Assembly: GCF_963678975.1 (NCBI RefSeq)
Contig: NC_089273.1
Location: forward strand, 5,720,507-5,784,506
DNA from: Dysidea avara
Lineage: Eukaryota > Porifera > Demospongiae > Dictyoceratida > Dysideidae
Length of the DNA stretch: 64,000 nt
Direction: 5' to 3'
The notes under the pieces were generated by a model. It searched no databases. It was not told the DNA's origin and was given only the letters and a program-made list of their open reading frames with translations. Shown here piece after piece: positions 5,256 to 62,600 of the stretch. A program made the translations under genes and the position numbers. Every line of letters starts with the position of its first letter. Positions within the stretch are counted from its first letter, which is position 1.

Positions 5256-5305
5256 GCTTGTATCAACAGGTAACAAAAATATTAACTTTCCATTTCAGTT
5301 ACTGA

Positions 5306-5941: not shown

Positions 5942-7147
<1,206 letters not shown>

Positions 7148-27229: not shown

Positions 27230-28318
27230 TAATGCGCCAAGGCATGTAGTTCCAAAATTTTGTTTTGATGATAATTTCAGATCAATAACAGATATCTTAA
27301 TTCTGTTTTTTTTTGCACATCATTATGTTCAAATATTACTAATTATTTGTATAGCTGTTGTTATGGTAACAACCACAAAAATGTCGCAATTTACATATCA
27401 GTGATTTTTAGCTTTTTTGAAACTAGTCCTCCATACTTCTGAGTTTTGCTAAACAATTGTAGTTCATGAAAGCTCTCATTGAGCCAAAGAATTCTTGTTG
27501 AACAGATTTAGAAAATTTGCTTTTACAAGGAAGTTATACCCATTTTTCCAATTTTCATAGGTTTTTGAAAAAATGAAACTTGTTTCACATGCTTATAATT
27601 TTTTATGAATACTCATTGTTTTCTTGAAGAAGATTGGCTAGACTAAAACTTCTGTTGAACAAATTCTAAATTTTCTATTTAGTTTTTGTTTTATAACTGT
27701 GTAAAGTCAATTTATGGCTTCGGCAATGAAATTTATCAAATACCACTGTTAATAAACATGCATGCTGCAGCAATTCAGACAAGAATAAACAATATAAAGT
27801 AGTATGACATAGTATACTAATAAGTATGACATAGTATACTAATGAGTATGACATAGTATACTAATGAGTATGACATAGTATACTAATGAGTATGACATAG
27901 TATACTAATGAGTATGACATAGTATACTAATGAGTATGACATAGTATACTAATGAGTATGACATAGTATACTAATGAGTATGACATAGTATACTAATGAG
28001 TATGACATAGTATACTAATGAGTATGACATAGTATACTAATGAGTATGACATAGTATACTAATGAGTATGACAAAGTATACTAATGAGTATGACATAGTA
28101 TACTAATGAGTATGACATAGTATACTAATGAGTATGACATAGTATACTAATGAGTATGACATAGTATACTAATGAGTATGCTAATAAGTATGACATAGTA
28201 TACTAATGAGTATGACACACGTAACATAAAAGTATAAAAACTCTGGTAGAACATACCTAACTAAAAATGAGTGGGCGAGCAGTTGAATATTTTTGGAAGT
28301 TCATGCCTTGGTGCACTA
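27230..28318. mobile_element. TA-inserted transposon (Tc1/mariner-like) carrying a minisatellite
   Basis: Terminal inverted repeats TAATGCGCCAAGGCATGTAG and complement (CATGCCTTGGTGCACTA). TA flanks both sides (27228-27229 and 28319-28320). Copy 1 of the duplication shows the empty site CTAG-TA-GCAAG at about 21684. No transposase is visible in the 1089 bp, which include the 22-bp tandem array, so the element is non-autonomous. Confidence 0.85.
27803..28213. repeat. 22-bp minisatellite, ~18-19 copies
   Basis: Near-perfect tandem copies of AGTATGACATAGTATACTAA followed by TG. One copy has CAAAG for CATAG, and one near 28176 is partial (GAGTATGCTAATAAG). The monomer contains the palindrome AGTATACT. 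Homogeneity implies recent expansion after insertion. Confidence 0.97.
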
Positions 28319-29230: not shown

Positions 29231-29643
29231 TAGGGACCCGCCGATTATGCTCATAATTTTACCTATTATGCTATGCTGCACTGCTCAAAAATTTACCTAT
29301 TATGCTCAAATTATGCCCAATTATTTATGCTTCAGTTCCCATGCTCTAGCAATAATTTCCAATTTATGGATAAATAATAAGTGGCTGAAGCACAAACTTA
29401 CTTGTCAAAATGTATATCACAGAAAATATCGATATACTCTAATAGAACAGTCAGCTATATGATTGTTCTATTAGAGTTACTGACTGTTCTATTAGAGTAT
29501 ATCGATCTTTTTGTGATAGCTATTTTGATAAGCAAGAATTCATACTATTACACAAATATTCTATCTATTATGCTAGCATTATGCTCAATGCTTTCAGACA
29601 CCTATTATGCTCATAATTATGCCAGCATAATCGGCGGGTCCCT
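29231..29643. mobile_element. hAT-like MITE, TAGGGACCCGCC termini, ~413 bp
   Basis: Perfect termini AGGGACCCGCCGATTATGCT and complement (AGCATAATCGGCGGGTCCCT). AGTCACCA occurs on both sides (about 29222-29229 and 29644-29651), an 8-bp duplication as made by hAT transposases. The empty site AAGTCACCACTTATTAGCC is at about 22570 in duplication copy 1. The interior has inverted repeats built on CTCTAATAGAACAGTCAG. The exact boundary is uncertain by one base. Confidence 0.85.
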
Positions 29644-34244: not shown

Positions 34245-35060
34245 ACATCAAGACACACGGTAGTGTGTCGTGCGGCCCAAGAAGCCGGCGCGCCACACCC
34301 GTGAGTATATTGACAGGAAGAACGAAAACGTCATTTTCACACCTTTGTATCTCGGTGATCACTTATCTGATTGGAACCAAATTTGCTACACAGTTGCCCG
34401 CCAGCCAAGGGAGTCTACATTCCAAATTTGAAGGAAATCGCTCCAGCCATTTCCGAGATACGAGCTGCCAAAGTTTCGTTTTTTTTCTTCGTTTTTTTTT
34501 TTTTCTTCTTCGTCTTTTCGCACACTTGCAAAAATTGCTATAACAAGCAAACGCGTACTCCGATCGCCTTGAACTTTGGCACACAGAAAGGGAGTCCAAA
34601 GGCGAATCCTAGCATCAAATTTGGTACAAATCCGATGAATGGTTCAGGAGTGATGACCGATTATTCGCGTAAAACAAGATCGATTTGTTGTCACGCCTAC
34701 AGGGTAAACCGCTTCATGGAATGAGTTGAAAATTGCTATGTAGGTGGAGTAACCATCGTAGGAGTGCCTTTTGGTGGTTTGAAAGGAATCGAGATAAATA
34801 CCACGGAGATATGACACAAAACCCAACCTCTGTCACAATTACGCGATCGATTTTTATGAATAAAAAAGTATTAGTTTTCACGCCTACTAGGCAAACCGCT
34901 TAGAGCAATGAGCTGAAAATCGGTGTATAGCTGGAATAATCTTCATAGAAAGTCCTTGCAGTAGTACAGAAGAATCGGATTACAAACCACTGAGTTATGA
35001 TTCGAAAGCCAACTCCGTGTAGCAAATGCGAGATCGAGATACTCTAATAGAACAGTCACC
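34245..35060. repeat. Head region of the composite element
   Basis: Contains two parallel segments, each a weakly matching ~150-bp block with phrases such as GCCTACAGGGTAAACCGCTT and GCCTACTAGGCAAACCGCTT. Open frames up to 117 residues exist on both strands but are low-complexity in part (T-rich run at 34490-34515) and are not kept in the related head at 43925. It ends in GAGATACTCTAATAGAACAG (35036-35055). Confidence 0.5.
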
Positions 35061-35089
35061 ATAATAGAACATTCGGCTAATTTATTTAC

Positions 35090-38000
35090 TCCATTATAGA
35101 ATTTTATTACATCACAAGTTATTCTGTAGGGAGTTCAGCTGCAAACAGTTAATCTTATAGACAGTTCAGCAAGAAGACAGTCACCATGTAGAGAGTTAAG
35201 CAAATATATCACTATAGAGATTCAGAACATTACAAGTCACACTGAAGAAAGTTCAGCTATAAACAAGTCATGCACTGTGTAGAGAATTCAGCTACAATTA
35301 AGTCACTCTCTAGAGAATTCAGTTACACAGAATTCAGCTACACACAAGTCACTGTGGAGAGAGTTCAGCTACAAACAAATTACCCTTTAGAGTGATCAGC
35401 TACAAACAAAACACTTTGCAGGGTGTTCAGCTGCAAACAAATCACCTTTAGAGAGTTCAGCTAGAAACAAGTCACCCTGTAGAGAGATCAGCTAGAAACA
35501 AATCACCCTGAAGAGAGTTCAGCTACAAAAAATCACCCTGTAGAGACATCAGCTAGAAACTAGACACAATGTAAGGAGTCCAGCTACAAGCAATCACCCT
35601 GTAGAGAGTTCAGCTAAAACAAATCAACCTGCAGAGAGATCAGCTACAAACAAATCACCTTATAGAGAGTTCAGCTACAAACAGATTACCTGTAGATAGA
35701 TTGGCTACAAACAAATCAACCTGCAGAGAGATCAGCTACACACAAATCACCCTGTAGAGAGATCAGCTAGAAACTACACACAATGTAAGGAGTTCAGCTA
35801 CAAACAAATCACCCTGTAGAGAGATCAGCTACAAACTAGACACAAAGTAAGGAGTTCAGCTACAAGTAAATTACCCTGTAGAGAGTTCATCTACAAACAA
35901 ATCAACCTGTAGAGCAATCAGCTAGAAACAAATCACCCTGAAGAGAGGTCAGCTACAAAAAATCTCCCTGTAGAGAGATCAGCTAGAAACAAATCACCCT
36001 GAAGAGAGGTCAGCTACAAAAAAATCACCCTGTAGAGAGATCAGCTACAAACAAATTGCCCTGTAGAGAGATCAGCTACAAGCAAAACACCCTGTAGAGA
36101 GTTCAGCAACAAAGAAACTACCATGGAGCGAGTTCAGCTACAAACAAATTACCCTGTAGAGAGATCGGCTACAAACAAATCAGCCTGTAGAGAGTTCAGC
36201 TAAAACAAATCAACCTGCAGAGAGATCAACTACAAACAAATCACCTTATAGAGAGTTCAGCTACAAACAAATTACCCTATAGAGAGATCGGCTACAAACA
36301 AATCAACCTGCAGAGAGATCAGCTACACACAAATCAACTTACAGAGAGATCAACTACAAAAAAATCACCCTGTAGAGAGATCAGCTACAAAAATCACCCT
36401 GTAGAGATATCAGCTAGAAACAAATCACCCTGAAGAGAGGTCAGCTACAAAAAAATCACCCTGTAGAGAGATCAGCTAGAAACAAATTACCCTATAGAGA
36501 GATCGGCTTCAAACAAATCAACCTGCAGAGAGATCAGCTACACACAAATCAACTTATAGAGAGATCAACTACAAACAAATCACCCTGTAGAGAGATCAGC
36601 TAGAAACTACACACAATGTAAGGAGTTCAGCTACAAATAAATCACCCCGTAGAGAGTTCAGCTAAAACAAATCAACCTGCAGAGAGATCAGCTACAAACA
36701 AATCACCTTTTAGACAGTTCAGCTACAAATAAATTACCTTGTAGAGAGATCGGCTACAAACAAATCAACCTGCAGAGAGATTAGCTACACACAGTTCAAC
36801 TTGTAGAGAGATCAGCTACAAACAAATCACCCTGTAGAGAGATCAGCTAGAAACTAGACACAATGTAAGGAGTTCAGCTACAAGCAAATCACCGTGTAGA
36901 GAGTTCAGCTACAAACAAACCAACCTGTAGAGCGGTCAGCTAGAAACAAATCACCCTGAAGAGAGGTCAGCTACAAAAAATCACCCTGTAGAAATATCAG
37001 CTAGAAACAAATCACCCTGAAGAGAGGTCAGCTACAAAAAAATCACCCTGTAGAGAGATCAGCTAGAAACAAATCACCCTGAAGAGAGGTCAGCTACAAA
37101 CAAAACACTTTGCAGAGAATTCAGCTACAAACAAATCAGCTTGTAGAGAGATCAGTTACACACAAATCAACCTGTAGAGAGATAAGCTAGAAACAAATCA
37201 CCGTGTAGAGAGTAGCTACAAGCAAAACACCCTGTAGAGAGTCCAGCAACAAAAAAACCACCATGTAGAGAGTTCAGCTGCAAACAAATCACCTTATAGA
37301 GAGTTCAGCTACAAACAATTCACCCTGTAGAGAGATCAGCTAGAAACTATACACAATGTAAGGAGTTCAGCTACAAGCAAATCACCCTTTAGTGAGTTCA
37401 GCTACAAACAAATCAACCTGCAGTGAGATCACCTACAAAAAAGCACCTTGTACAGAGTTCAGCTACAAACAAATTACCCTGTAGAGAGATCGGCTACAAA
37501 CAAATCAACCTGTAGAAAGATCAGCTACACACAAATCAACTTGTAGAGAGATCAGCTACAAACAAATCACCTTGTAGAAAGATCAGCTAGAAACTAGACA
37601 CAATGTAAGTAGTTAAGCTACAAGTAAATCACCCTGTAGAGAGTTCAGCTAAAACAAATCAACCTGCAGAGAGATAAGCTACAAATAAATCACTTTACAG
37701 ACAGTTCAGCTACAAACAAATTACCTTGTAGAGAGATCGGCTGCAAAATAATCAACCTGCAGAGAGATCAGCTACACACAAATCAACTTGTAGAGAGATC
37801 AGCTACAAACAAATCACCCTGTAGAGAGATCAGCTAGAAACTAGATACAATGCAAGGAGTTCAGCTACAAGCAAAATCACCCTTTAATGAGTTCAGCTAC
37901 AAACAAATCAACCTGCAGTGAGATCACCCACAAAAACGCACTTGTACAGAGTTCAGTTACAAACAAATCACCTTGTAGAGAGATTAGGTAGAAGAATTCA

Positions 38001-39050
38001 CCTTGTAGAGAGTTCAGCAACAAAGAAACCACCATGTAGAGAGTTCAGCTGCAAACAAATCACCCAGTAGAAAGATCAGCTAGAAGAAGTTACCTTGTAG
38101 AGAGTTCAGTTACAAAGAAATCATCATATAGAGAGTTCAGCTACAAAGAAATTACCCCGTAGAGAGTTCAGCTAGAAGAAGTCACCTTGTAAAGAGTTCA
38201 GCTACAAAGAAACCATCATGTACAGAGTTCAGCTACAAAGAAACCACCTGTACAGAATTCAACTACAAACAAATTACCCTGTATAGAGATCAGCTAGAAG
38301 AAGTTACCTTGTAGATAGTTCAGCTACAACAATTCACCCTGTAGAAAGATCAGCTAGAAGAAGTCACCTTGTAGAGTGTTCAGTTACAAAGAAACCATCA
38401 TGTAGAGAGTTCAGCTGCAAACAAATCACTCTGTAGAGAGTTCAGCTACAAAGAAACCGCCATGTAGAGAGTTCAGCCTCATACAAACCACCTTGTAGAG
38501 AATTCAACTACAACAAATCACCCTGTAGAGAAGAAGTTACCTTGTAGAGAGTTCAGCTACAAAGAAACCATCATGTAGAGAGTTCAGCTACAAAGAAACC
38601 ACCTAGTAGAGAGTTTAGCTGCAAACAAATCACCTGTAGAGAGTTCAGCTAGAAACAAATAACCCCATAGAGAGATCACCTGGACGAAGTCACCTTGTAG
38701 AGAGTTCAGCTACAAAGAAACCATCATGTAGAGAGTTCAGCTGCAAACAAATCACCCTACAGAGAGTTCAGCTACAAAAAATCACCCTGTAGAGAGTTCA
38801 GCTAGACGAAGTCACCTTATAGAGAGTTCAGCTACAAAGAAACCATCATGTAGAGAGTTCGGCTACAAAGACACCACCATGTAGAGAGTTTAGCTGCAAA
38901 CAAATCACCTGTAGAGAGTTCAGCTAGAAACAAAATACCCTGTAGAGAGACCAGCTAGAAGAGGTTACCTTGTAGAGAGTTCAGCTACAAAGAAATCATC
39001 CTGTATATAGTTCAGCTACATTTCAAGTCACCCAGTAGAGAGATCAGCTG
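35090..39050. repeat. 31-bp satellite, ~125 monomers, ~247-bp higher-order period
   Basis: Monomer close to AGAGAGATCAGCTACAAACA followed by AATCACCCTGT. A variant monomer with AAACTAGACACAATGTAAGG recurs at about 36600 and 36847, and again at 37340, 37586 and 37829, spacing 243-247 bp, which is eight monomers. The right part (38000-39050) uses other variants (GAAGAAGTTACCTTG, AAAGAAACCATCATG). A small block of the same satellite is at 55405-55720. Confidence 0.93.
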
Positions 39051-39204
39051 TAAAAAAATATCCTGTGGGGAATAATGGGCATGTAATAAATATATGTATA
39101 TAATTTGTATAATTACTAATAAAATCAAAAATAATGGAAGTACTAAAATTCTTCTTTAAGTTCTTTTCTTCTTCCTGTAGTAAAGAAAAAAACACATGGG
39201 TTAA

Positions 39205-39510
39205 AAAAGCCCCAAAGCCAGCCATAGGCCGGCTTTGCAGTATACAAATACAAAAAGAAGTGATATCTAATCAAAAACAGCCAAGCTGTAAAAAAATGTG
39301 CGGCCCTCAAAAAGGCCATGGTGAAAAAAGATGTGAAATCCAAGGTGGCGGCTAAGAAATGGCTGTGATGGTAGGTTAATGGTTACATTTTAATAACGAC
39401 AATTCAGGTGAATTTTGTGCCAAGATTTCACATCTTTTTTCACCATGGCCTTTTTGGGTGCCGCACCTTTATTTACAGCTTGGCTGTTTTTGATTAGATT
39501 ACAATTTACG
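39205..39510. repeat. Foldback tail of composite element
   Basis: Left arm contains AACAGCCAAGCTGTAAAAAA, GGCCATGGTGAAAAAAGATG and TGTGAAATCCAAGG; the right arm has their complements. Same foldback family as 46060-46395 and 55895-56226. Confidence 0.8.
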
Positions 39511-40629: not shown

Positions 40630-41126
40630 CAGTGGCGGATCTAGGATTTTTAAAAGGGGGTTTCTGAAAATTGGCATAGCTGAATAAGGCATCTGATGAC
40701 ATTTCTCTAGAAAAGTTTGAGATTTTAGAAGCTCTGAAATTGGATTTTAGGCTACTTTTAGTTAGCAATTACAATAAATCCAACGCTTTAAACTGTAAAT
40801 ACTATATATAGCTACTAGTATAGGGCAAAGATGGTGACTATAAGTTGTAGCTCTGATTGCTCTATTAGAGTAGTTACTTGACTGCTCTATTAGAGTATCT
40901 CGATTGTTTTTAATACAGTGGGAGATGAAAAGTGAAGTGTTGCTGAGGGTTTAATAGCTATAAATAGTGTCAGTTAAGTGCAGCTACACTGGAATACAGT
41001 GGTTTATAGTTGTTTGATATAACAAATTGTCAGTACAACAATGTTTATGTATTTAGACTACCACTGAGTTAAATTTAAAAAGGGGTTTCTGTCGAAACCC
41101 CAGAAACCCATCTAGATCCGCCACTG
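40630..41126. mobile_element. CAGTGGCGG MITE, best preserved copy, 497 bp
   Basis: Ends CAGTGGCGGATCTAGGATTT and ATCTAGATCCGCCACTG. TAGCC immediately flanks both ends (40625-40629, 41127-41131), a 5-bp duplication. The interior contains TGACTGCTCTATTAGAGTAT (40879-40898). Superfamily not certain. Confidence 0.85.
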
Positions 41127-43726: not shown

Positions 43727-43924
43727 TTAATCACCAATGACAATTGAGAACTGCGGAACAAAGATTGTGTGCTCAGCGAAAGTGTCATCAACGAAGAAGA
43801 AGAATGCTTTGAAGGCAAGTGAAACGTTGTTTAGATAGGTATGCTCAGTCTTCACAGACTGTATGTTGTACACTTATAACTGGTATCATAACCTAATATT
43901 ATTGTAAAATCAAGACATGCGTTA

Positions 43925-44470
43925 GTTTGTCATGTGGCCAAGAAAGCCAGCAACCACACCATGAGTATATTAACAGGAAGAAAGAAAACAGCCTTTTCAT
44001 GCATGCATAGCTCCATGGCCCCTTCTCCAAAACACATTATTTTTGCATTACGGCTGTTCCCTAGGTAGGGTACGCCACACAGCAAATTTGATTAAATTCG
44101 CAGCAGCCATTTGCGAGATATGGGTGTTCAAAGTTTCATTTTAATTTCTTTGTTTTTTTCTTATGCCATACGGGGGTTTCGATTTCTTTTCGCACACTTT
44201 GCAACAATTGCTATAAAATGCAAACACGTAACTCAATTGCCTCGATCTTTAACACAAATTAAGAGCATGTAACGGTGGATTCACATACCAAGTTTGTTTG
44301 GAATCTGAGGAATATTCAAGGAGTTATGAGTGTTTATTCACGTAAAAAATCAAACTTCTGTCATGGCTACAGGATAAACTGAGAAAGAAATAACTTGAAA
44401 ATTGGTGTGTAGATAGGCTGATCATTGTAGCAGTGCCTTTTGATAGTTTGAATAGCAACAATTACACAGA
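43925..44470. repeat. Head region of a second composite element
   Basis: Matches the head at 34245 (GAGTATATTAACAGGAAGAA against GAGTATATTGACAGGAAGAA; TTTCGCACACTTTGCAACAA). Diverged and interrupted downstream by the foldback at 44474. Confidence 0.6.
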
Positions 44471-44473
44471 AAA

Positions 44474-44757
44474 ATTTGGAATTTTCAACTAGAGTAGGGA
44501 CCATAGCACATCGATAAAAAGTACTGAAACAAGGTGGAGTAGTGCACGATATTAAATCACAGTAAAACAATAAGAAGTGTTATATCCCTACTGTGCATTT
44601 CCATTATATATGGTATCTTGAGCACAGTAGGGATATAACACTTCTTATTGTTTTACTGTGATTTAATATCGTGCACTACTCCAGCTTGTTTCAGTACTTT
44701 TTATCGATGTGCCATGGTCTCTACTCTAGTTGAAAATTCCAAATTTTTCTTTGTACT
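44474..44757. mobile_element. Foldback element, ~120-bp arms
   Basis: The left arm (GGAATTTTCAACTAGAGTAG through AGTGTTATATCCCTACTGTG) is repeated almost perfectly as its reverse complement after a ~35-bp spacer. The arms would form a long hairpin in DNA or RNA. A second copy is at 54038-54310. Confidence 0.9.
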
Positions 44758-44837
44758 TGTTTGTTAACTTTGTTTTGTAAATAATTATTATGACTGGTGA
44801 ACCCACACATACTGCATCTGAAATGGCGCCATTCACC

Positions 44838-45400
44838 CCAATTATCGTCTGAAAAGTGAAGTATCCATTACACTTCGTTGTCAGCTATATTCAACCCGTT
44901 AAGCAGCATTTTTGAATCAAGAACTGTTCGAAAAGCAACTCTGCACACCGAGACGCATTGCAAAAGAAATGATGCCGCGTGCTCCAGTTATACCAATTAT
45001 CGTATGAAAAGTGAAGTATCCATTATGCTTCGTTGTTGGCTGTGTTCAACCCATTACATAACAGTACGAATCAAGAACTGTTTGACAAGCACCTCTGCTA
45101 TCAAAATAGCCACTATGAAAAATACGGACGATTTCCTTTACGTGAAGGGAAGCATCACGTGCTGTCGTGAAATTGACACTTTTCGCTGTCAGCAAAGATG
45201 AATGGGATACAAAGGAGGACACTGGTAAGTCCATGAAGAATGCATTGTACATACTGCAGTATGCCAAAAGGCACCTGTCGGGACAAAGTGACGTTGAACA
45301 GCGAAAAAATCAATCCCGTAGCCTTAGCCGTTATCGAGTTATGCTTGTTTGAAGGCATCAGTCAGTCAGTTACTTACTCAGTCAGTAGAAAATTCTGTTA
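44838..45400 (+). repeat. Copy of the repeat family behind the tandem array
   Basis: Contains two tandem versions of a ~150-bp block (AAAAGTGAAGTATCCATTAC at about 44850 and 45007), then a stretch reading as MKSEVSIMLRCWLCSTHY and DEWDTKEDTGKSMKNALY in broken frames. The inverted copy is at 53400-54010, where the frame is longer. It ends near GAAGGCATCAGTCAGTCAG. Confidence 0.6.
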
Positions 45401-46059
45401 AATAAATTATTTTTAAAATCCGTAGCAACTTGTTGAAAGCATTTCGGGTAGATCTGAAAGCTTGTTTGGGCTTAGTTTCACCTAACCAATGCTGCCTGAT
45501 CATCGTTAGGGGAAATTGAGGTTGTATTTTGGGTGATATTATTTTGTGGGCCACGCCCACTCCTTTGTGGTCCCTACTATACACTACGATATTGTAGTGT
45601 ATGATAGAGTTACAGTGACAAAGTTATAAAGCAAAAACCAAGCAAGTGTAAAATCGTGTGATCGCGATACTCTAATAGAGCAGTCACCGCAGGGTAAAAA
45701 AGATGTGCAAAAATGTCAAATAAAAAGCTTACCATAGTTCGAACCAGACCTGCATCCTTGACCACTGAACCACTGCTACCTTTGCTGATCACCTCACTTA
45801 ATTTCCGCTTTATAAATGAAATTTTTAGTTGAAATCTGCTTATAATCAAATGTTTGTAATTTCATAGATCTACCAATAGAAGTACTAGATTGTTCTAGAA
45901 CATTCTATGTATGTTCTATTAGAAGTCCTCAAAAAAAGTGCACTCTATTAGAGTATTACAATAATATTATCAAATATTGAATTAAATCATGCAATGAAAT
46001 ACATTTATAAGTCTGTCTTCAATAATTATCATTGTATCTGCATAGAAAAGAAATGTGAG

Positions 46060-46395
46060 TAAAAACAACCTCAAAGTCAGCCATAGGCTGGTTATGGGTC
46101 CTTATAAAGTACAAAATGAAGTGAAATTCACACAAAACAGCCAAGCTGTGAAAAATGGTGTGGCCTTAAAAATCCTGGGTGAAAAAAGTTGTGAAATCAA
46201 AGGTGGGGGCCTAGAAATGGCCGCAATGATGTTAATGCTAAAAAAAATTAATAATGGCTGTGTGTATTGTTAAAATTTATTAGCATTAACATCATTGCAG
46301 CCATTTCTTGGCTGCCACCTTTGATTTTACAACTTTTTCACCCAGCCTTTTTAAGACTGCACCATTTTTTCATAGCTTGGCTGTTTTTGTGTGGA
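46060..46395. repeat. Foldback tail of second composite element
   Basis: Arms contain AAAACAGCCAAGCTGTGAAA, GGTGAAAAAAGTTGTGAAAT and TTAATGCTA with complements around a ~35-bp loop. Same family as 39205-39510. Confidence 0.8.
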
Positions 46396-46479
46396 TAAAT
46401 TATATGTGTACATATTGCTATGCATTAAATATGAATTATATTTACCTCAGATGCAACACACATTAGTATGTATTTTGTA

Positions 46480-47556
46480 GCTGCCTGGAGTGAAAGTCCT
46501 CTGGATCGTAGTGTGTGGTCTAAGCCACGTTCACATGTGTACTGGAAGGCAGCTAAAGCTGGTGCATTTGGAGATGACTAGTGGCATGAAAACATACGGA
46601 TGAGTAAAGCTATGTTTGGTGTGCTGTGTGACAAGCTAAGGCTACACATAAGCAAGGCAGTGACAAAGGATCGTTTACCTGTTGCTGTTGCTGTTGATAT
46701 GCATGTAGCTGTCACCATCTGGCGTCTTGCAACAAATATCGAGTACAGAACAATAATTGCTGAACATTTTGGACTAGGTATTTTAACAGTGTGTACTATC
46801 ATTTGTAGAACCACTAGTGCTATCACATATTATCTGCTACCACTGAATGTGCAGATGCCATCAGAATCAAGGTTCAGGAAAATAATACAAGACTTTGAAG
46901 CTCTGTTGGCATTTCCCCAGGTAACTGGAGCAATTGACGGGACTCATGTTCCCATTTTAAAGCCAACTGATTGCCCATCTGATTGTTACAACCACAAGGC
47001 TTTCTATTCTATTCTGATGCAAGCAGTTGTAGATTCACAAGGTCAATTCATAGATGTAAATATTGGTTGGCCAGGAAAAGTACATGATGCAAGGGTGCTT
47101 GCAAATTCAACATTTTATAACAAAGCATCCTCTGGTACCCTTCTCCCCAACTGGACAAGAACCATTAATGGTGTGAATGTACCACTACTTATTCTGCCTA
47201 TCCTTTAAAGCCTTGGATGATGAAGCCTTATCCTGATACCGGTCATTTAACAGCAGCTGAACGGCACTTCAACTATTGTCAGGATGGTAGTGGAGAATGC
47301 TTTTGGACGTTTGAAGGAAAGATGACATTGCTTGTTGAAGAGTATGGACTATTATACTCTGCATACCACAAATGCAGTGGCCTCCTGTGTTGTGTTGCAC
47401 AATATTTGTGAGCAATTAGGAGATGTATGCCGACCTGACTGTATCCATAGAACCAATACATTCAACAGCAGTACACCAGTTCTTCCACCTGTTGCAACAG
47501 TGGCTGACGGAAATGCTAGCAACATACGCAGTGCATTGAGCCAATATGTATAGCAC
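46480..47556 (+). pseudogene. PIF/Harbinger transposase (DDE_Tnp_4), dead
   Basis: The order of motifs is that of a PIF/Harbinger nuclease: WSKPRSHVYWKAAKAGAFGD near 46520, MSKAMFGVLCDKLRLHIS from 46600, the first catalytic motif GAIDGTHVPI (about 46930), GWPGKVHDARVLANS (about 47070), and VENAFGRLK with the catalytic Glu near 47295. A stop (TAG for a Trp codon) lies at about 46578-46580. The block that should carry GDPAYP, including the second catalytic Asp, has lost about ten bases near 47194 with a frameshift. Another stop (TGA) is at about 47322. The C-terminal part (SCVVLHNICEQLGD) is readable to 47553. In known elements this protein cuts and joins the transposon with the help of a Myb-like partner, here encoded convergently at 47592-49216. 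Loss of the catalytic Asp means it cannot be active. Confidence 0.9.
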
Positions 47557-47591: not shown

Positions 47592-49216
47592 ACATGAACA
47601 CTTGTTGTTTTGACAAACTATTTATACAGTTGTATAGTGTACTATTAATCAGATTGTACATTGGGTCTAGTTCAGGATCATTATCCACACTACTTCGGTT
47701 GGTAAATGGTACACTACTGTAGTTAGGCATAAAATCCTGGCCAGGAAATATAGGATTCCCTGTAGCATGATTGTAGTGTGGATAAACATGTGGGAAAGAT
47801 GACATGGGACCTGGGGGTTGAGACATCATGCTACTCATCTGAGTCATAAAACCAGTAAACATTGAAATCATCATCTGAGCATGACGGTCTTTATATTCCC
47901 TCCTCTCTTCTGTCTTCAGACTCTAGCCACCTCTTCTCTCGTCCCTCAGCTTTTTTCTCTGCTTCCTCGTCAATTTTAGCTATCTTTGAGATCAAGTCTT
48001 CTGAATCTCTCTTTCGCTTCTTGCCAAATATAAAGATACTTAATAGCGAAAACAAGTGACAACCAACCTCTTGTCTTTTCAAACTTAACCATTTATCTAT
48101 TACACACACACATACATATAATTATGCCATAGCTATTCATTGCATTTTAATACATGCCTTGATCATCTACAGATTGTGCACTCTGGACTTTCTCCTTGCT
48201 TTTTAGTGATGGTGGTGTCTCTTCAGTTGCTTCTGCAATATGATCAACTGTAGTAGTTGATCCTTTTGCTGGCTCAACCACTGCCGATGTTGAAAAACAG
48301 CTAGTCTCTAGTGGATTGCAGTCATCGAGTTCTGTACACATGGAAGATACGATATGCTTGGGTGTGGTTTTAATACAGGGGATGCCTTGATCTCTAACAC
48401 TGCTTCCTGAGGTGTTTTCTATTATTACAGTGGGGTTAAATGTTGCCCGTACAGCTAGTATAGCATCTAGCTCCTCAAAGGTTGGCATGTTTTCCTATTG
48501 TTTTCCATCCCACAATTATTATCCTCAACCTAGGAGAAATACGCTTCACTATGCTGAGTTAGCTCTAGTCTCGCGGCGCCCGACCCTAAAAAGAGGGTCT
48601 GGTGAAACTGTGTACAAAAAGTTTGAGCTCTGGAATGTTTATTGGATGACGTTTTACGTGTTACGTAAGTGCACTGTTTACGTCACAACATCCATTCAAC
48701 CAGATCCGCTTACAGCATCACCAAACCAATAGTGCTACTTTATTTATTCAACATTAAAACGAACCCAACAGAATTGTATGGCTGTTTTCTCAATGAGTTT
48801 AAGCAGCAGAGTCACCGGATGTAATTAACCGTAAGCCGCGAATCTTTTGAAATGTACACATTACATAATCAATTTGAAATGGAGCGATCTGATTGGAGCT
48901 TCCAACATTCCGGCAGCGCCAAACTTTTTGTACACAGTTTCACCAGACCCTCTTTTTAGGGTCGGGCGCCGCGAGACTAAGTTAGCTCTGAATCTTTTAC
49001 CTTGTTGTACTTAGCCTTTAGGTTCTTCACCTTCGTGTAGCACTGCTTGTAATCAAAGTCGTATCTTTTCTCTTTCATACAAGGGTGTATTCTCTTTCAT
49101 ACAAGGGTGTAGCGACCACTATTTTCTTGAAGATTGTTTTGTTCCTGCTAACCCCATCAAGGTTTTCTTGTATGTTTTGTTCTCCCCATATAGCAATCAG
49201 GGCTTGTGTAGCTTCC
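47592..49216 (-). pseudogene. Harbinger Myb/SANT-like partner protein, dead
   Basis: The minus strand from about 49216 reads MAPSWSVEATQALIAIWGEQ and later KQCYTKVKNLKAKYNKVKDS, a Myb/SANT (trihelix-like) DNA-binding domain typical of the second Harbinger gene. Next comes TFEELDAILAVRATFNP (48485 down), then a charged coiled-coil-like stretch (KIAKIDEEAEKKAEGREKRW, 48050-47900) and a Met/Pro-rich end near 47590. Breaks: a ~21-bp direct duplication in the Myb region (TCTCTTTCATACAAGGGTGT at about 49069 and 49091), a 414-bp MITE inserted at 48566-48979, a stop after it, and frameshifts near 48500 and 47890. Tail-to-tail layout with the transposase fits the family. Its role in living elements is binding the ends and aiding nuclear import of the transposase. 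Confidence 0.8.
48566..48979. mobile_element. Mutator-type MITE, 414 bp, 9-bp target duplication
   Basis: Ends TAGTCTCGCGGCGCCCGACC and complement, with inverted repeats running to about 60 bp (through CTGTGTACAAAAAGTTTG). AGTTAGCTC is duplicated at 48557-48565 and 48980-48988. Long inverted repeats with a 9-bp duplication indicate a Mutator-like (MULE) origin. The near-identical arms suggest a recent insertion into the already mobile Harbinger Myb gene. Confidence 0.9.
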
Positions 49217-52579: not shown

Positions 52580-52960
52580 TCAGCTTCAGTACTAGAACAA
52601 CTTGCTCATTTTATAAGTTATAGGCAAGGCTGAAGTTTATTCTATGAGTAAGTTATGATGCCATGCCATATGGCTGCAGTGGCTGTTAATGGATCAATCA
52701 TTACAGAAAGATCCCTTCACGGTTTAGAAAAATCAAATTTAGAACCACTGAGTTATGTGAAAGTCAACTATCTGTATTAACTGTGTGATTGAGATACAGT
52801 CACCCTATTAGAGCAGTCACTTACAGCTAATCAATCTACTACGGAGGTCAAACATGTTAAAAGTCACCATGTACAGAATAGTGACTAATCAAGTAGGCAA
52901 CAAGTCACTCTGTTCAGCTATGTTACAAGTCATCCTGTAGAGTATGGGGTACCATTTGTA
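52580..52960. repeat. Fragment of a third composite element (head/satellite joint)
   Basis: ACCACTGAGTTATG and GAGATACAGTCACCCTATTA (52744-52810) match the joint at 35000-35060. It is followed by AGTTCAGCTATGTTACAAGTC-like satellite traces. Confidence 0.5.
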
Positions 52961-53169
52961 TCACAATTTTTTGCTCTAAAATTCTACGATTTATACGAAA
53001 TCGAAATCTGTACAATGGTTTAAATAAATTGAAGTGTACGTTTTATTAAATTTAAGAATGTAAATTTAAATTGTGCAATACAATTTACTAAATTGAGGAA
53101 TATGATTTACTGCAAACAATTTGTTTAATCCAAGACAATTCATTATTCAATGTATCACAAAAGAATACC

Positions 53170-54010
53170 ATATCATACAGTACAATAGTAGTGTATAGTA
53201 GGGATCACAAAGTAGTAGGCATGGCCCATGAAATAACATCACACAAAAACCAGCCTCAATTTACCCAGACAACGATGAGGCATTATTGGTTAGGTAAAAT
53301 CAAGCCCAAACAAGCTTTCAGATCGACCTGAAACGCTTTCAAAAAGTTTCTACAGAATTTGAAAATACTATATATATATGTATATATTTAATGGATTTTT
53401 CTACTGACTGACTGATGCCTTCAGGTAAGTGCAAATCGATAAAAGCTAAGGCTACAGGCTTGATTTTTTCACTGTTCGACGTTGCCTCAGCCCACCAGGT
53501 GCCTTTTGACATAACATACCATAGTTGGTACAACATATTCTTCATGGACTTACCAGTGTCCTCCTTTGTGTGCCATTCATCTTTGCTGGCAGCAAAAAGT
53601 GTTGATTTGACGGTAACATGTGATGGCTTCTGGAAATCGTCCGTAGTTTTCATAGTGGCTGGTTTGATTGCAAAGATGCTTTTTGAACAGTTCTTGATTC
53701 GTACTACTGTGTAAAGAGTTGAACATAGCCAACAGCAAAACGTAATGGCTACTTCACTTTTCAAATGATAATTGATATAGCTAACTGGGGGCGCAACACC
53801 ATTTCTTTTTTTCAGTATCCGTGGATTGCTGAGGTGCTTTTCGAACAGTTCTTAATTCGAAATGCTGTGTAACAGGTTGAACATAGCTGACAATGAAGCA
53901 TTATGGATACTTCACTTTTCATACAATAATTGATATAGCTGCATAGGTCGCGCAGCACGATTTCAGATGTGGTATACGTGGGGTCATTGAGTCATAATAA
54001 TTATTTGCAA
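53170..54010 (-). repeat. Array-family repeat with the longest surviving frame
   Basis: The minus strand has an open frame 53764-53339 (141 codons) that begins MKSEVAITFCCWLCSTLYTV and includes ASKDEWHTKEDTGKSMKN and TSNSEKIKPVALAFIDLHLP. The plus-strand copy at 44838-45400 encodes the same phrases in broken frames, and the tandem units at 7148-16015 contain the same DNA in a more decayed state (CCTGATACCTTCAGACAAGT against TGATGCCTTCAGGTAAGT). I do not recognise the protein. It may be an untranslated repeat whose frame is chance, or a transposon-borne gene. Confidence 0.5.
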
Positions 54011-54037
54011 AAAAAGTTAACAAATAAGTATGCAAAA

Positions 54038-54310
54038 GAAATTGGAATTTTCAACTAGAGTAGGGACCATAGCACATCGATAAAAAGTACTGAAACCAGC
54101 TGGACTATTGCACGATATTAAATCACAGTAATACAATAAGTAGTGTTATATCCCTACTGTGCTCAAGATATCATAATGGAAATGCACAATAGGTATATAA
54201 CACTTCTTATTGTTTTACTGTGATTTAATATCGCGTGCTACTCCAGCTTGTTTCAGTACTTTTTATCGATGTGTTATGGTCCCTACTCTAGATGAAAATT
54301 CCTTTTTTTT
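54038..54310. mobile_element. Foldback element, second copy
   Basis: Same arms as 44474-44757 (GGAATTTTCAACTAGAGTAG; AAAAAGTACTGAAAC), slightly more diverged between arms. Both copies lie next to the array-family repeat, so the two may have moved together. Confidence 0.85.
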
Positions 54311-55175
54311 GTACTTGTCGATATCATGAACCACGATAGTAGTTTCATAATAGGGATTGCATTTTATTTGGAAAAACTGTAATAGAATGCATGTCTAAAA
54401 GCCACCTACATGTAAGAAAGCATCCTCCAACTCCTTCTGATGGTTATTTGCAATGAGTATTGGTCCACTATTAAGTATCAAGTGAAAAGGAAACATTTAG
54501 GACAAACTGAAATTTGCCATTGTGTTCATATTCTTCATATATATTTTGTTTCACTCATGTACAGCAAAAGTTATCCATTTTTTCGTGCTAAAAACTATAT
54601 AGAAATAGCCATGCTTACTGAGTCCTTCCACGTGTCCATGACCTATTTTTGATTGAGTTTTCGGATGGAAACAGCCCAAACTGGGCCGTGTCTTCTTGCC
54701 AAAACACCATTACCCATGAGAAGCCATACAAGTTCACGCTCATAGTTAGGTTTTTTGGTGTGCACTACTTGTCGTTAATAGATTTTGTCTTTAATATTAT
54801 CAGTATAGGCCAAGAAGCTTAATCTGTGCTGAAGAATTTGTTGCAAGGTGGTTTTTTCGCTCCGTGATTGTTGTACATGGGTGGGTTATCCAGATTAAAT
54901 AGTCTAATAGAGCATTCATGTACATACTCTAATAATGCAATCAAGTGTATAACAACAATCCTTGCACTGAATTTGTCATCTATTAAAGGCACCAGTAATG
55001 TGAATTCTAGGAGACTTTCATTCTGTATGCAGATTGCAATTTGATCAGTTTCATGTGTGTACTGAAATGTTGACGGTGTTGATTGCAAAATTACACTATT
55101 CACAACAGTCTTCATTATCAATAAAAGAAATCCATAATCCATTAGTGGATTATTAAAAAGTACATAACTATATGA
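54311..55175. other. Unassigned sequence
   Basis: Two open frames (54440-54652 plus; 54819-55142 minus) without recognisable domains, and a CTAATAGAGCATTCATGTAC motif at about 54903. No gene is called. Confidence 0.4.
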
Positions 55176-55401
55176 ATAAAAAATTAGAATTTTTAGAATA
55201 AGAAATAGGAATCACTGAAAAAAGCCACGAAACAAGAAGGGATTGCTGGGGTGGTAATGTAAACCACAAATCCCTATTTTGACTCTCTGTCATCAATCTT
55301 TAGTTATGTACTCTGTCATTTTGAAACAAGTCAAAATAGGGATTTGGTTTACATTACCACTCCAGTGATCCCTATTCCTATTTTAAAATTTCCAATTTTT
55401 T
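55176..55401. mobile_element. Foldback element, different family
   Basis: Left arm TGGTAATGTAAACCACAAAT and CCCTATTTTGAC, right arm GTCAAAATAGGGATTTGG, with outer arms TAGGAATCACTG / CAGTGATCCCTATTCCTA. A ~60-bp loop lies at 55285-55330. Confidence 0.75.
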
Positions 55402-55404
55402 ACT

Positions 55405-56230
55405 CATCTTAGTTCAGCTAGAAGAAATTACCTTGTAGAGAGTTCAGCTACAAAGAAACCATCATCTAGATAGTTCAGCTGCAATCAAATCACCTGTAGA
55501 GAGTTCAGCTACAAACAAATCTCACTGTAGAGAGATCAGTTAGAAGAAGTTACCTTGTAGAGAGTTCAGCTACAAAGAAACTATTCTGTAAAGAGCTCAG
55601 CAGCAAAAAAATCACCTGTACAGAATCCAGCTACAAATAAATCACCCTGTAGAGAGAACAGCTAGAAGAAGTTATCTTGAAGAGTGTTCAGTTACAAAGA
55701 AACCACCATGGACAGTTCTGTAATAAATATATGTATTATATATATAATTTGTACATTTACTGATAAAATCAGAAATATTTAAGGTACATCTACTTCATCT
55801 TTTCTTCTTCCTGTGGTAAAGAAAAAAGATAGGTTTTAAAAGTCCCAAAGCAGGCCATAGACCGGCTTTGGGGTATACAAATACAAAAAGAAGTGAAATC
55901 TAATCCAAAACAGCCAAGCTGTAAAAAAAGTGTGCGGTCCTCAAAAAGGCTATGGTGAAAAAAGATGTGAAATCCAAGGTAGTGGCCAAGAAATGGCTGT
56001 GATGGTAGGTTAATGGTAAAAATTTTAATAACAACAATTCAGGTGAATTTGGTGCCACTTGGTCAATTGGCACAAAATTCACCTGAATTGTCGTTATTAA
56101 AATTTTTACCATTAACCTACCATCACAGCCATTTCTTGGCCGCCACCTTGGATTTCACATCTTTTTTCACCATAGCCTTTTTGAGGGCCGCACACTTTTT
56201 TTACAGCTTGGCTGTTTTGGATTAGATACA
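55405..56230. mobile_element. Composite element, 3' part (short satellite plus foldback tail)
   Basis: About ten monomers of the 31-bp satellite (55405-55720), then a spacer (ATAAATATATGTAT, TTTTCTTCTTCCTGTGGTAA) and a foldback of ~160-bp arms (55895-56058 and 56070-56226). Part order matches 38700-39510 exactly. Confidence 0.8.
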
Positions 56231-56656: not shown

Positions 56657-59600
56657 TCAGTCTTCAATGTCGTCCATCACTTCCATGAAGGATTCACGAT
56701 AGTGAGTGGCATCATTGATCTCTGATTCTCTGCTATATGTAAGAGTAGAGAGAGCATAATTATTATGTGCCATGACAACAATGAAACTGTAATGTATGAT
56801 GTGCAGAATATTTAGAAACAGTAACACAATAAAGTACAATATTGATGGGGTCTCCTGAAGATCCAGAAAGATCTTTTGATATTTGTACTTACACAGGCTT
56901 GCAGCATAACCATCAAAATTATTATCAAAACTTTAGTAGCACATTTGAAAGTAGCTACAGAAAAATTCACAGTGCAGTACACTATTAAAACTGCAGCAGT
57001 GGAGTATTGCATTAGGTAACTTGATGAATAGTATTATGTTGCTTTATTTATTTTTCATGGTCTTCCATCCAGCATATTTTCCTCAAATGCTTGATATATT
57101 GCTCAACAATTATCTCTATTGCCTTTGACACAACCGAATTTGGTTTTGTAGGTAATTTTTGGCAATGTACATGGAAGCGTGATATGCATTGCCATACCAC
57201 ATAATGATAATAATAATATACTTACATTTCACATATAGTAGCATTCACCCTTCTGCTATCATCAATAACACTATCAACGAACTCTTCTCTCATTGGTATC
57301 TCATTGTTGTCATTGGTAGTGTCAGGTTTAGGTGGCACACAATATTTAGTGATTTTCTTAATTGTCCTTTTGTAAAGGTAAATTTCTATTATCAGAAATG
57401 GTATTAAGGGTAGTATAACTACTACAAATATAAATGATAGCAATAAATCAGGATCATAACTGTCAATAAGTGGTACCATTGAAACCACAATCATCAAATG
57501 CAACACAAAGCCATCAAACACATTAAGAATGTTAGATCCATATGGCCTTATTGTCATATGTATAAAGGCTAGTGTGGAGTTAGCAATGATCAATGAATAC
57601 TGGGTAGTGTTATTATTTGATGTATTGGCAATAATTATCAAAATAACAACCAGTCGACACGTCATGTAATAAGCTGCAAATGAACGATACTTGTCTTTGT
57701 AACATCCTTGAAACTGATCCAGTAATGGTTTTATTCGGGTAAAGTTAATTTTCTTGTTAAGAAATGGCTCCAATAAAAGTAGAAATGGCAGACCAATTAC
57801 AATAATTAGAGTGCATATTATTGCTAAAATAAAATATGGTAGATGACGGCCATGTAAATATTCTATGTCAGGTGACAGGTAAGTGTAAACCTTATCCACA
57901 TTATGAAATGTCAGTGATCTCAATATCAGTAATGAAGTTGTTGCCACAGAAGTGTACGATAACAATAGAAGAAAACAGATAACATGGATAATTCCTCTAC
58001 TAACAAATGATGAAAACTTGTATGATATTCTTGCTGATAGGCAGATTACTACTATGATAATGGCAACAGCTATTGGATGGACATAATGAATGAACTGTTG
58101 GTCAATTCCACTCATATTAGTTACTAAACAAAGCTGTCCTAAAAATTGTGGTGTGACTTTTGCAATACTGGACATAATGCTAACAAACGTAAATAATCCT
58201 TGTGATGAGTACAAGTGTTCACTCAGCAAAATATCCACCATACTGTAATAGTATGTAATAGCATACAAATAACCAATCCCAATGTGATAGTATGTCACAA
58301 TGAACACTAATATAACTATCACCACCCAGTAAAGGATTGATAATGTTACCACAAGTACTGTTTGTTCAGCTGTACATTTATCAACACTTACACATTCTAT
58401 AGAATCAAATGAAAGAGTATAGCCTTCCTTACAAGCACCACAAGCTGTACCAGATCGCTGTGAAATGCACTGATTTGCTCTGACTGGTGAAAGTTCATAA
58501 AATCCATTACCCATTTCACAACAAGCAAACTTACAATAATTATTAGGACAAATCGTCACTGTAGCTTTATCATCAACTTCACCAAACCAGTAACCTCTTT
58601 TGATAGATGATGTACTACCAGAACAAGACACAACATCACTATCATTGTAGCATACACATGTTTGTGTATTATTATTATCATAGTGGAAACCAGGGTGACA
58701 TGGTGATAGTTCAATTATTAGCTTAGTGGAAAACTCCTTTAAGTTAGAAATACCGCTATCATATGAAGTGATGGTCATTGTATAATTAGTTGCATCCACA
58801 ACTCTCATCCCCTTTATACTCACTCCTTCAAATACTGTACATGATATTAGCACATTGTCTGATCCAATAATGGGATGATCTTGATCTTCACTGCTCAGTT
58901 CAAATTGTGTTGATTGAGCAGGTTGATTGTAATAATCCCTTACACAAGCACTCATTATAATTTCCTGACCTAGCATTATATTTCTTGTTAGATAAGTCTG
59001 ACAATTTGTATCATTGCCATTATGGATACATGTAACTGCTGAGTCATTAAATTCTAGTTTTCTAGGAGAAGTTTTAATGACCCCGTCAAAATGATTATAT
59101 CCTTTGTTAATGATGCTGTTGCTGAAACACATCTCATCACATGATGTTGGCATGTCAACATAAACATCAGAACCTGTTAGGTCAGTGTTGTGATGAAATG
59201 TAATATCTGTAGTGTTGAATGTAATTTTATTCTCAGTACTTTTTGTCAGGTCACAATATATGGACCCACCAAGGCGATTAGCAGTGTTGTGGAAAAATGT
59301 GTTATGAGAATTATGGGATATACTTACAGTGAAATGATCGGTTAGATGCATGGCCCCACCACTTCCTGCAGCTGAATTACTGAAAAACTCTGTACGGGAA
59401 TTATCCATAAATGTTACAGAAGATTTCACAGCAGAGATGGCTCCCCCATTCTCTGCCTTATTCCTGGTGAAATTTACTGAAGCATTTTCCACAAATGTCA
59501 ATGTTGATTGTAGAATTGATAAGGCTCCACCATATTGAGATGTATTGTTCATAAACTTCACTGTAAGTTTTCCTTCTAGTGTAATGTTGGAGTTATCACT

Positions 59601-62600
59601 ACAATAGATTGCTCCACCATACTGAGTACCTTCATTATTAGAATAAGTAACTTTTGAGTGTTCTGTAACAGTCACAGTGGAATTGTCGGTAATGTACAGT
59701 GCTCCTCCGCTTTCACTTGCTTTATTATCATTAAAGATAATTGTGCAGCTTCCTTCCAATATGAAAGCAACTTGTTTCTTTGAATATATAGCTCCACCCT
59801 GTATGGCTCTGTTTTCCAGGAATTGAATAACAGAGTCTTCTTTAAACAATGCATAAGAATTTTCTTCACTGACTAAAGCTCCACCAGTTTTTGCAATGTT
59901 ATTGACAAATATCACTGATGTATGTTTATAAAATAAGACACCACATTTTTTATTGCAAAATACAGCTCCTCCTTCACTGGCTTTATTATTAATAATTGTT
60001 ATATTTGAGTTATCATCAAATGTGATATGAGATGAATCCAAACAATAGACAGCTCCTCCATGTCCATTGACTTTATTATTATTAAATGTTACACTTGAGT
60101 TACCAACAAATCTGATATGAGATGAAGACTCACAATATACAGCTCCTCCATTATCACTGGCTTCATTGTTATTAAATGTTACACCTGAGTTACCATCAAA
60201 TCTGATATTAGATGAATCATAACAATATACAGCTCCTCCAGTATCACTGGCTTCATTATTATTAAATGTTACACTTGAGTTACCATCAAATGTGATATTA
60301 GATGAATAATAACAATATATAGCTCCTCCACCACCACTGGCTTCATTATTATTAAATGTTACACTTGAGTTACCATCAAATGTGATATTAGATGAATCAT
60401 AACAATATACAGCTCCTCCATCACCACTGGCTTCATTATTATTAAATGTTACACTTGAGTTACCATCAAATGTGATATTAGATGAATTATAACAATATAC
60501 AGCTCCTCCAACACTGGCTTTAAATGTTACACTTGAGTTACCATCAAATGTGATATGAGATGAATCCAAACAACAGACAGCTCTCCATGTCCACTGACTT
60601 TATTATTATTAAATGTTACACTTGAGTTACCATCAAATGTGATATTAGATGAATCATCACAAAATATAGCTCCTCCATTACCACTGGCTTTATTATTATT
60701 AAATGTTACACTTGAGTTACCATCAAATGTGATATTAGATGAATCATCACAAAATATAGCTCCTCCATCACCACTGGCTTCATTATTATTAAATGTTACA
60801 CTTGAGTTACCATCAAACGTGATATGAGATGAAGACTCACAATATACAGCTCCTCCATCATCACTGGCTTCATTATTATTAAATGTTACCCTTGAGTTAC
60901 TATCAAATGTAATACGAGATGAATACTTACTACTTATAGCTCCTCCATCAACACTGGCTTCATTATTATTAAATGTTACACTTGAGTTACCACCAAATGT
61001 GATATGAGATGAATAATAACAATACACAGCTCCTCCATCCGCACTGGCTTCATTGTTATTAAATGTTACACTTGAGTTACCATCAAATGTGATGTGAGAT
61101 GAATATCTATTACTTATAGCTCCTCCATCATAACCGGCTTCATTATTATTAAATCTTACACTTGAGTTACCATCAAATGTGATATGAGATGAATAATAAC
61201 AATACACAGCTCCTCCATGTACACTGGCTTCATTATTATTAAATGTTACACTTGAGTTATCATCAAATGTGATATGAGATGAATGCCTACAATGTAAAGC
61301 TCCTCCATATGTGGCTGTATTATTATTAAATGTTACACTTGAGTTATCATCAAATGTGATATGAGATGAATGCCTACAATGTAAAGCTCCTCCATATGTG
61401 GCTGTATTATTATTAAATGTTACCCTTGAGTTACTATCAAATGTAATACGAGATGAATACTTACTACTTATAGCTCCTCCATCAACACTGGCTTCATTAT
61501 TATTAAATGTTACACTTGAGTTACCACCAAATGTGATATGAGATGAATAATAACAATACACAGCTCCTCCATCCGCACTGGCTTCATTGTTATTAAATGT
61601 TACACTTGAGTTACCATCAAATGTGATGTGAGATGAATATCTATTACTTATAGCTCCTCCATCATAACCGGCTTCATTATTATTAAATCTTACACTTGAG
61701 TTACCATCAAATGTGATATGAGATGAATAATAACAATACACAGCTCCTCCATGTACACTGGCTTCATTATTATTAAATGTTACACTTGAGTTATCATCAA
61801 ATGTGATATGAGATGAATGCCTACAATGTAAAGCTCCTCCATATGTGGCTGTATTATTATTAAATGTTACACTTGAGTTATCATCAAATGTGATATGAGA
61901 TGAATGCCTACAATGTAAAGCTCCTCCATATGTGGCTGTATTATTATTAAATGTTACACTTGAGTTACCATCAAATGTAATATGAGATGAATTCTTACTA
62001 CTTATAGCTCCTCCATCCCTACTCGCTTCATTATTATTAAATGTTACACTTGAGTTACCACCAAATGTGATAGGAGATAAATAATAACAATACACAGCTC
62101 CTCCATCCGCACTGGCTTCATTATTATTAAATGTTACACTTGAGTTATCATCAAATGTGATATGAGATAAATAACAATGTAGAGCTCCTCCATCCACACT
62201 GGCTTCATTATTATTAAATGTTACACTTGAGTTATCATCAAATGTGATATGAGATGAATGCCTACAATGTAAAGCTCCTCCATATTTGGCTGTATTATTA
62301 TTAAATGTTACACTTGAGTTACCATCAAATGTGATATGAGATAAATGCCTACAATGTAAAGCTCCTCCATATTTGGCTGTATTATTATTAAATGTTACAC
62401 TTGAGTTACCATCAAATGTGATATGAGATGAATACTCACAATATACAGCTCCTCCATCCCTACTCGCTTCATTATTATTGAATGTTACACTTGAGTTACC
62501 ATCAAATGTGATATTGGAATTATCACTGTATATGGTACCACCATACCTCGCATGGTTGTACTTAAATGTCACTATTGAGTTTGCCCAAAAGATCATACTG

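Follow-up and report, generated by a model that had tools for sequence, protein, structure and literature searches.

Mobile elements that carry a tandem array inside them are already known, with the oyster HINEs, DINE-1 and the foldback element Tetris as examples. In the oyster Crassostrea gigas, HINE monomers are 140-180 bp long, most arrays hold five or fewer of them and none more than 29, and the targets are T-rich (TT) (PMC7492417). The same study, citing a Xenopus model, connects a higher number of repeats with lower mobility, and also names DINE-1 as an element carrying internal tandem repeats. In Drosophila virilis, Tetris harbours ~220-bp tandem repeats inside its inverted repeats, which also form longer satellite-like arrays (PMC4079207). 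Here, we describe an element of this general build from the sponge Dysidea avara, found in a window of 64,000 nucleotides (the whole stretch analysed, positions 5720507-5784506 of contig NC_089273.1, labelled C2); the genome searched comprises 550.8 Mb in 108 contigs. The element joins a head, a short joint, a satellite of 31-bp monomers, a spacer and a foldback tail into one unit, which is present in thousands of copies and probably moves as a whole.

Like the Cg_HINE/Pearl Helentrons, the sponge element is dispersed, lacks a transposase and has a central array of fixed orientation with set flanks on each side. It further resembles Cg_HINE in its hairpin-type ends, in a microsatellite on its left side (in the sponge a short, T-rich, microsatellite-like run of the head at 34475-34518, called by Tandem Repeats Finder, TRF) and in the apparent lack of a target duplication beyond a possible AT, and Cg_HINE is likewise without an identified autonomous partner (PMC7492417). 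Unlike Cg_HINE (PMC7492417), its monomers are 31 bp long and number 81-164 per array, its target is read as A/T (the slash marks the breakpoint), and it possesses a foldback tail of ~325 bp. With Tetris it shares the combination of a foldback and internal tandem repeats as well as an apparently non-autonomous nature, however, its foldback stands at one end only and the monomer counts require no free arrays (PMC4079207). The original prediction, made from the window alone, knew of no described family with this build, a view that these elements do not support; new are the arrays of ~100 monomers, the foldback tail and a probable A/T insertion without the CTRR terminus of Helitrons.

The complete order from head to foldback that had been predicted for 34245..39510 is present, and comparison of copies places the ends a few bases inside these limits (Table 1). 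The head of the window copy contains neither a gene-like long open reading frame (ORF) nor a transposase, and its second half includes two direct repeats of ~215 bp that are 67% alike. Rfam gave no matches within the window. The tail of the window copy folds far beyond shuffled sequences (z -17.3), and the first 60 nt of the element also fold better than shuffles (z -3.3), but as a different, larger structure than the 5' hairpin recognised by eye. The tail measures ~325 bp in most fetched copies, part of its middle being absent from the window copy.

Table 1. Parts of the element and of its older relatives in the window
Feature	Position	Strand	Basis or remark
Whole element	34248..39498	+	A (34247) and T (39499) taken as target bases; 5' and 3' breakpoints common to 17 other two-ended copies
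Head	34248..35041	+	18 copies differ by 1.75% on average
5' hairpin GACACAC-GGTA-GTGTGTC	34252..34269	+	7-bp stem, 4 nt inside the 5' end, by eye
Joint CTCTAATAGAACAGTCAC	35042..35059	+	sequence
Satellite of 31-bp monomers (130 in all), with a weak period of 8 monomers (247 bp)	35124..39049	+	TRF, wrap-around alignment
Spacer	39050..39263	+	adjoins tail in 18/20 fetched loci
Foldback tail, arms 39258-39340 and 39424-39506 (92% complementary)	39258..39506	+	right arm contains the 3' end of the element (39498)
3' terminal hairpin ACAGC-TTG-GCTGT, then 11 nt ending GATTAGA	39475..39498	+	5-bp stem, by eye
Related but older copy with joint, spacer, tail and a nested foldback insert (head identity 68%; no satellite called by TRF)	43910..46395	+	ends by eye
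Decayed related copy	52690..56228	+	head remnant and joint 52690-52820, later inserts
Downstream parts of the decayed copy	~10 monomers 55411-55710, spacer 55719-55897, tail 55898-56228	+	TRF for the monomers

The 31 bp at the 5' end have 5,031 exact matches in the genome and none when the pattern is read backwards, and 25 bases of the 3' terminal hairpin region, which occurs in two arms per tail, have 5,051. The best 40 of 2,397 candidate head matches to the window copy were scored, and 20 places besides that of the window were fetched in length. Head, array, spacer and tail follow one another in this order at 18 of these 20 loci, where the spacers are 94-99% identical in 17 and 80% in one. 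The remaining two (L023 and L024) break off at an identical head position and have a common upstream flank, which suggests that they are one event seen twice; an integrase-like ORF lies downstream of the broken-off head of L023. All other fetched loci differ in their flanks and are identical in their breakpoints. These shared breakpoints, together with the number of exact 5' ends and the completeness of the fetched loci, bear out the mobile unit with a satellite core that had been proposed. Differences among 18 head copies average 1.75% (range 0.9-3.0%), therefore the spread of the family looks recent, as far as these best-matching copies represent it. When approached from the tail, seven of ten fetched loci carry spacer and monomers on the upstream side; the other three were most likely fetched on the wrong side, since what little sequence follows the tail there looks, by eye, like reversed spacer. 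One more tail locus, L052, turned out to be an ordinary copy lying in reverse.

Some copies have a more complex surrounding or interior. L010 and L018 (tail to head) and L017 (tail to tail) abut another copy of the family with few TA bases in between. L016 and L051 carry an extra partial 5' end (~60 bp) before the complete one; their outer flanks differ, the outer copy ends at the same spot in both, and the junctions differ by an AT. A reverse-transcriptase element is inserted at the beginning of the array in L019, and in L035 spacer-like sequence, judged by eye, flanks the tail on both sides. An 18-base piece of the 5' end has no match in viral_contigs and a 19-base piece none in genome_contigs, searches in which near records may be missed, and literature searches on sponge genomes, transposable elements and satellites found no earlier description in sponges.

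The order of the parts was also followed in exact matches on chromosome C1, using the first places listed, unranked by likeness to the window copy. For 15 of the 20 heads listed in the first 2.71 Mb, a monomer follows downstream on the same strand at a distance of up to 6 kb, and for none does one lie upstream or on the opposite strand, as compared with a mean of 0.72 and a maximum of 4 in 2000 trials of random placement. A tail lies within 10 kb downstream of 34 of the 99 heads listed (random mean 6.1, maximum 16). For 11 of the 99 a tail lies on the wrong side, sometimes just a few hundred bases off, which is expected if copies adjoin one another. Conversely, 35 of 61 tails listed have a head in the right place and 26 have none within 10 kb, and 30 of 31 spacer tags listed adjoin a tail arm. 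Thus, at the listed places head, monomer and tail co-occur in the order that the original prediction required, far above random for the heads. The demand for an exact match and the existence of short head-tail copies, one of which is 2.1 kb long, account in part for the heads and tails that lack a partner.

The satellite travels with the unit. In the 19 copies sampled for array size, the mean array length is ~3.4 kb; the ~125 monomers first estimated for the window copy become 130 by wrap-around alignment. Arrays were compared in 15 copies (105 pairs; L015, L022, L011, L025 (head in two pieces), L023 and L024 were omitted) by an alignment in whole monomers, which is blind to partial-monomer changes. 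Matching monomers of different copies are 0.960 alike over 93% of the shorter array, and in the control with the monomer order of one array shuffled they are 0.846 alike over 61%. By comparison, all pairs within an array are 0.731 alike on average, and monomers eight positions apart (lag 8) reach 0.772 (15 copies; 0.743-0.803 per copy). Since likeness between copies exceeds both the likeness within arrays and that of the shuffled control, the arrays are inherited with the element rather than homogenised in place, and their monomers diverged before the present copies spread. Two arrays differ by a mean of 6.6 insertion or deletion events; the gaps span 1-51 monomers, 532 of 694 are of 1-6 monomers, and they are fewest in the first tenth of the array.

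Both ends of the unit are well defined. All 18 two-ended copies, including that of the window, start with ATCAAG and end with GATTAGAT (L011, L023 and L024, in which the 3' end is not intact, were left aside). The flanks of the 18 copies differ and lean to TATA; AT is preceded by T in 11 of them and by A in 2, and it is followed by T in 6. The original prediction also called for target duplications, and none was seen by eye in the printed flanks beyond a possible AT. Two copies lie inside other repeats, and the status of A and T in the window copy, as target or element, is read from these two empty-site alignments. L009 lies within another repeat family, the relatives of which are ~70% identical; its joined flanks, with one A and one T kept, form a gapless junction against two of three relatives, whereas the third shows a gap of 3 bases. 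For L013, which is inserted in a related head, the gap is 1 base against two of three relatives and larger gaps appear against the third. The comparison covers three of many matches for each of these two loci, with the self-matches of L010 and L018 excluded and the match of L026 outside it. Taken together, these insertions suggest that at most an AT pair is duplicated and that the target holds an AT. The best reading of the insertion on this sequence evidence is A/TC...GATTAGA/T, which would be Helitron-like; after the target base, the 5' end is A/TCAAGACAC, so that the TC start is present.

Canonical Helitrons end in CTRR, with a hairpin about 10-12 nt upstream. The unit resembles them in its 5' TC and in a 3' hairpin 11 nt before the end, but it ends in TTAGA instead of CTRR. 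Helentrons and HINEs are marked by a subTIR and a 5' inverted repeat, a microsatellite, tandem repeats in the centre and a 3' palindrome. Of such features, the unit displays a 5' hairpin, a T-rich stretch, an array and a 3' hairpin or foldback, and an inverted GTGCGGCC that is not clearly above shuffles in the 70-bp ends; instead of the TT site of HINE, the 18 copies have A/T with TATA-leaning flanks. The unit is therefore best classed as Helitron-like in its insertion and as no proven Helitron or HINE, as it has neither CTRR nor a TT target. Rep domains were located in the same genome with the Pfam model Helitron_like_N (150 scored matches of 230 candidates), and two classes of canonical coding Helitrons, A (two copies) and B (three copies), start with TCTATAT and end with CTAG/T. 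They share with the unit the insertion at A/T, as it is read here, the 5' TC and a hairpin roughly a dozen nt from the 3' terminus. A head copy in L040 abuts the 5' end of a class B Helitron, which suggested a link, but no match to the head is present in the 5' stretches fetched for the two remaining copies of class B. A Rep match on C1 at 8486802 with a tail 2.3 kb downstream (8489095) likewise suggested a link, but the tail is that of the reversed copy L052. The locus L042 encodes Rep, PIF1 and OTU domains and, judged by the last of these, is presumably Helentron-like; beyond its coding part, at 7462-8819, it bears a tandem array with periods of ~101 bp and 459 bp, thus the habit of carrying arrays is present in this genome in a Rep-helicase-OTU locus as well.

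We consider it probable that we are dealing with a non-autonomous DNA element which transposes as one piece, inserts in a Helitron-like manner between A and T, and carries its satellite as old cargo copied entire. Head, satellite, spacer and foldback tail would be mobilised together and inserted without further target duplication; the route is likely Helitron-like (rolling-circle, HUH-type), with the enzymes supplied in trans by an autonomous element. Before the recent burst, the array would already have reached ~100 monomers and have diverged internally, and it would be copied whole at each transposition, with later change consisting mainly of the gain or loss of monomer blocks.

Several observations weigh against this interpretation. 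The A and the T are invariant, yet the ends were located through the strings ATCAAG and GATTAGAT, so their constancy is no separate test of the target, and on these sequences an A/T insertion is indistinguishable from cut-and-paste insertion with a 2-bp AT duplication. The 3' end is TTAGA/T instead of the canonical CTRR/T. The class A and B Helitrons are not the source of the unit, since their ends differ, and no Rep/helicase element with these ends was found in a check that took in a minor part of the 150 scored Rep matches; L041 and L042, single Rep-helicase loci of two further types, lack GATTAGAT in the fetched stretches. Among the listed heads, an exact monomer downstream is missing for 5 of 20, and an exact tail in the 10 kb downstream for 65 of 99. 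The sampled heads are best matches, which means that their divergence is understated. Finally, head distance increases neither with the divergence of the arrays (Spearman -0.19, p 0.05) nor with the number of insertion and deletion events (-0.42; 105 pairs for both), thus heads and arrays show no single branching order; copies may have exchanged sequence, or the heads may be young and star-like in descent while the arrays form subfamilies.

The strongest competing explanation, which is possible but clearly less likely, is a cut-and-paste transposon of the ISL2EU type (PHIS) that makes a 2-bp AT duplication, its tail and 5' end being unequal terminal inverted repeats. AT is found at both outer ends in 18 of 18 copies, GTGCGGCC is inverted at the two ends in the alignment of L014, and a DDE_Tnp_4 piece (46600-47205) adjoins the tail of the older copy in the window. 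ISL2EU itself produces AT duplications, has terminal inverted repeats and uses the target A/AT/T (PMC4482050), and the flanking AT is what the sponge unit has in common with it, whereas the inverted repeats and the A/AT/T target are unclear here. When the first and last 70 bp of three copies were scored as inverted repeats, 45, 595 and 152 of 1000 shuffles equalled the score, thus the ends are not clearly inverted repeats. The bases adjoining AT also misfit AATT, with T preceding AT in 11 of the 18 copies.

Somewhat more doubtful is the idea that the ends, with their 5' hairpin, doubled 3' hairpin foldback and A/T site and with neither CTRR nor a T/T target, belong to a lineage of its own among transposons of the hairpin-ended, single-strand type. 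In this lineage the array of ~100 monomers would be required, and it would escape homogenisation because copies are reset from the mobile pool.

Quite improbable is a true centromere-like higher-order satellite that was captured or seeded by the element, an explanation close to the 8-mer higher-order repeats and the likeness to centromeric arrays in the original prediction. The periodicity itself is real. TRF calls the array of the window copy at 35334-39049 with periods of 31, 62 and 247, the last agreeing with the predicted ~247 bp, and the 8-monomer period exceeds 30 shuffles of the monomer order, with z values of 8.0 for lag 8 and 6.4 for lag 16. The effect is small, mean identity being 0.79 at lag 8 versus a base of 0.74. 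Lag 8 ranks first in 12 of 19 arrays (z 2.7 to 9.4), lags 8 and 16 are prominent in the spacing of exact monomers among the matches listed on C1 (15 and 11 pairs), and L021 has 440 exact 25-mers at a 247-bp offset and 288 at 494 bp. A homogenised higher-order organisation did not hold up, however: monomers at lag 8 are 77% alike against 73% for all pairs, far from near-identical units, whereas matching monomers of different copies are 96% alike, which also speaks against the centromeric comparison. The copy counts point the same way. The genome contains 28,145 exact monomers and 278,591 at ≤3 mismatches, and the 19 sampled arrays hold on average 3.84 and 42.1, respectively; the totals divided by these means correspond to 7,325 and 6,617 arrays, similar in magnitude to the 5,031 exact 5' ends. 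The arrays of the elements can thus account for the monomer counts and large free arrays are unnecessary, although a moderate number of free arrays may exist besides them. Exact monomers listed in the first 2.7 Mb of C1 form 28 scattered clusters, each ≤7 kb. In the reading favoured here, the 8-monomer period is what remains, much faded, of block duplication; some copies such as L021 have renewed it locally, and it would go back to an old duplication in an ancestral array. That independent repeats merely lie side by side, as the solitary joint motifs and the partnerless heads and tails might suggest, is refuted as the main explanation by a strand-consistent order well above random and by the presence of spacer and monomers at all seven tail loci fetched on the right side.

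The joint CTCTAATAGAACAGTCAC is present in the unit as predicted, but as a marker it is unspecific, with 15 matches at ≤3 mismatches in the window versus 0.10 expected. At most of the other sites the match to the head extends barely past the motif, and by eye the motif looks like a degenerate edge monomer. It occurs without the rest of the head, singly or in close pairs, at 29437-29497, 40853-40895, 8735, 11756 and 13409, and the close pair at 29437-29497 looks palindromic.

The two partial copies proposed at 43925-46400 and 52580-56230 are real, with revised limits; as to their satellites, TRF lists ~10 monomers for the second copy but no array for the first. Shortly past the tail of the older copy lies a fragment of a Harbinger-type DDE_Tnp_4 transposase (46600-47208, + strand). 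Elsewhere in the window, an element with 60-bp inverted repeats that are 100% identical and 294 bp apart occupies 48566-48979, and a 22-bp tandem array of 17 copies (99% matches) lies at 27801-28180. Two paralogous loci on the - strand (973-5276 and 57222-63529) contain 90-bp (30-aa) tandem repeats matching Chlam_PMP, and two of their three scanned ORFs are matched by right-handed beta-helix models.

To conclude, if 6,600-7,300 arrays of ~3.4 kb are present, the satellite would constitute ~4-5% of the genome, a rough estimate from biased samples. Arrays of ~100 monomers in thousands of young copies stand against the view, reported in PMC7492417, that more repeats mean less mobility. Moreover, the monomer order can be traced from copy to copy, therefore the gain and loss of satellite blocks becomes measurable here without the blur of concerted evolution, and the family offers a clean natural case of transposons spreading satellite DNA.

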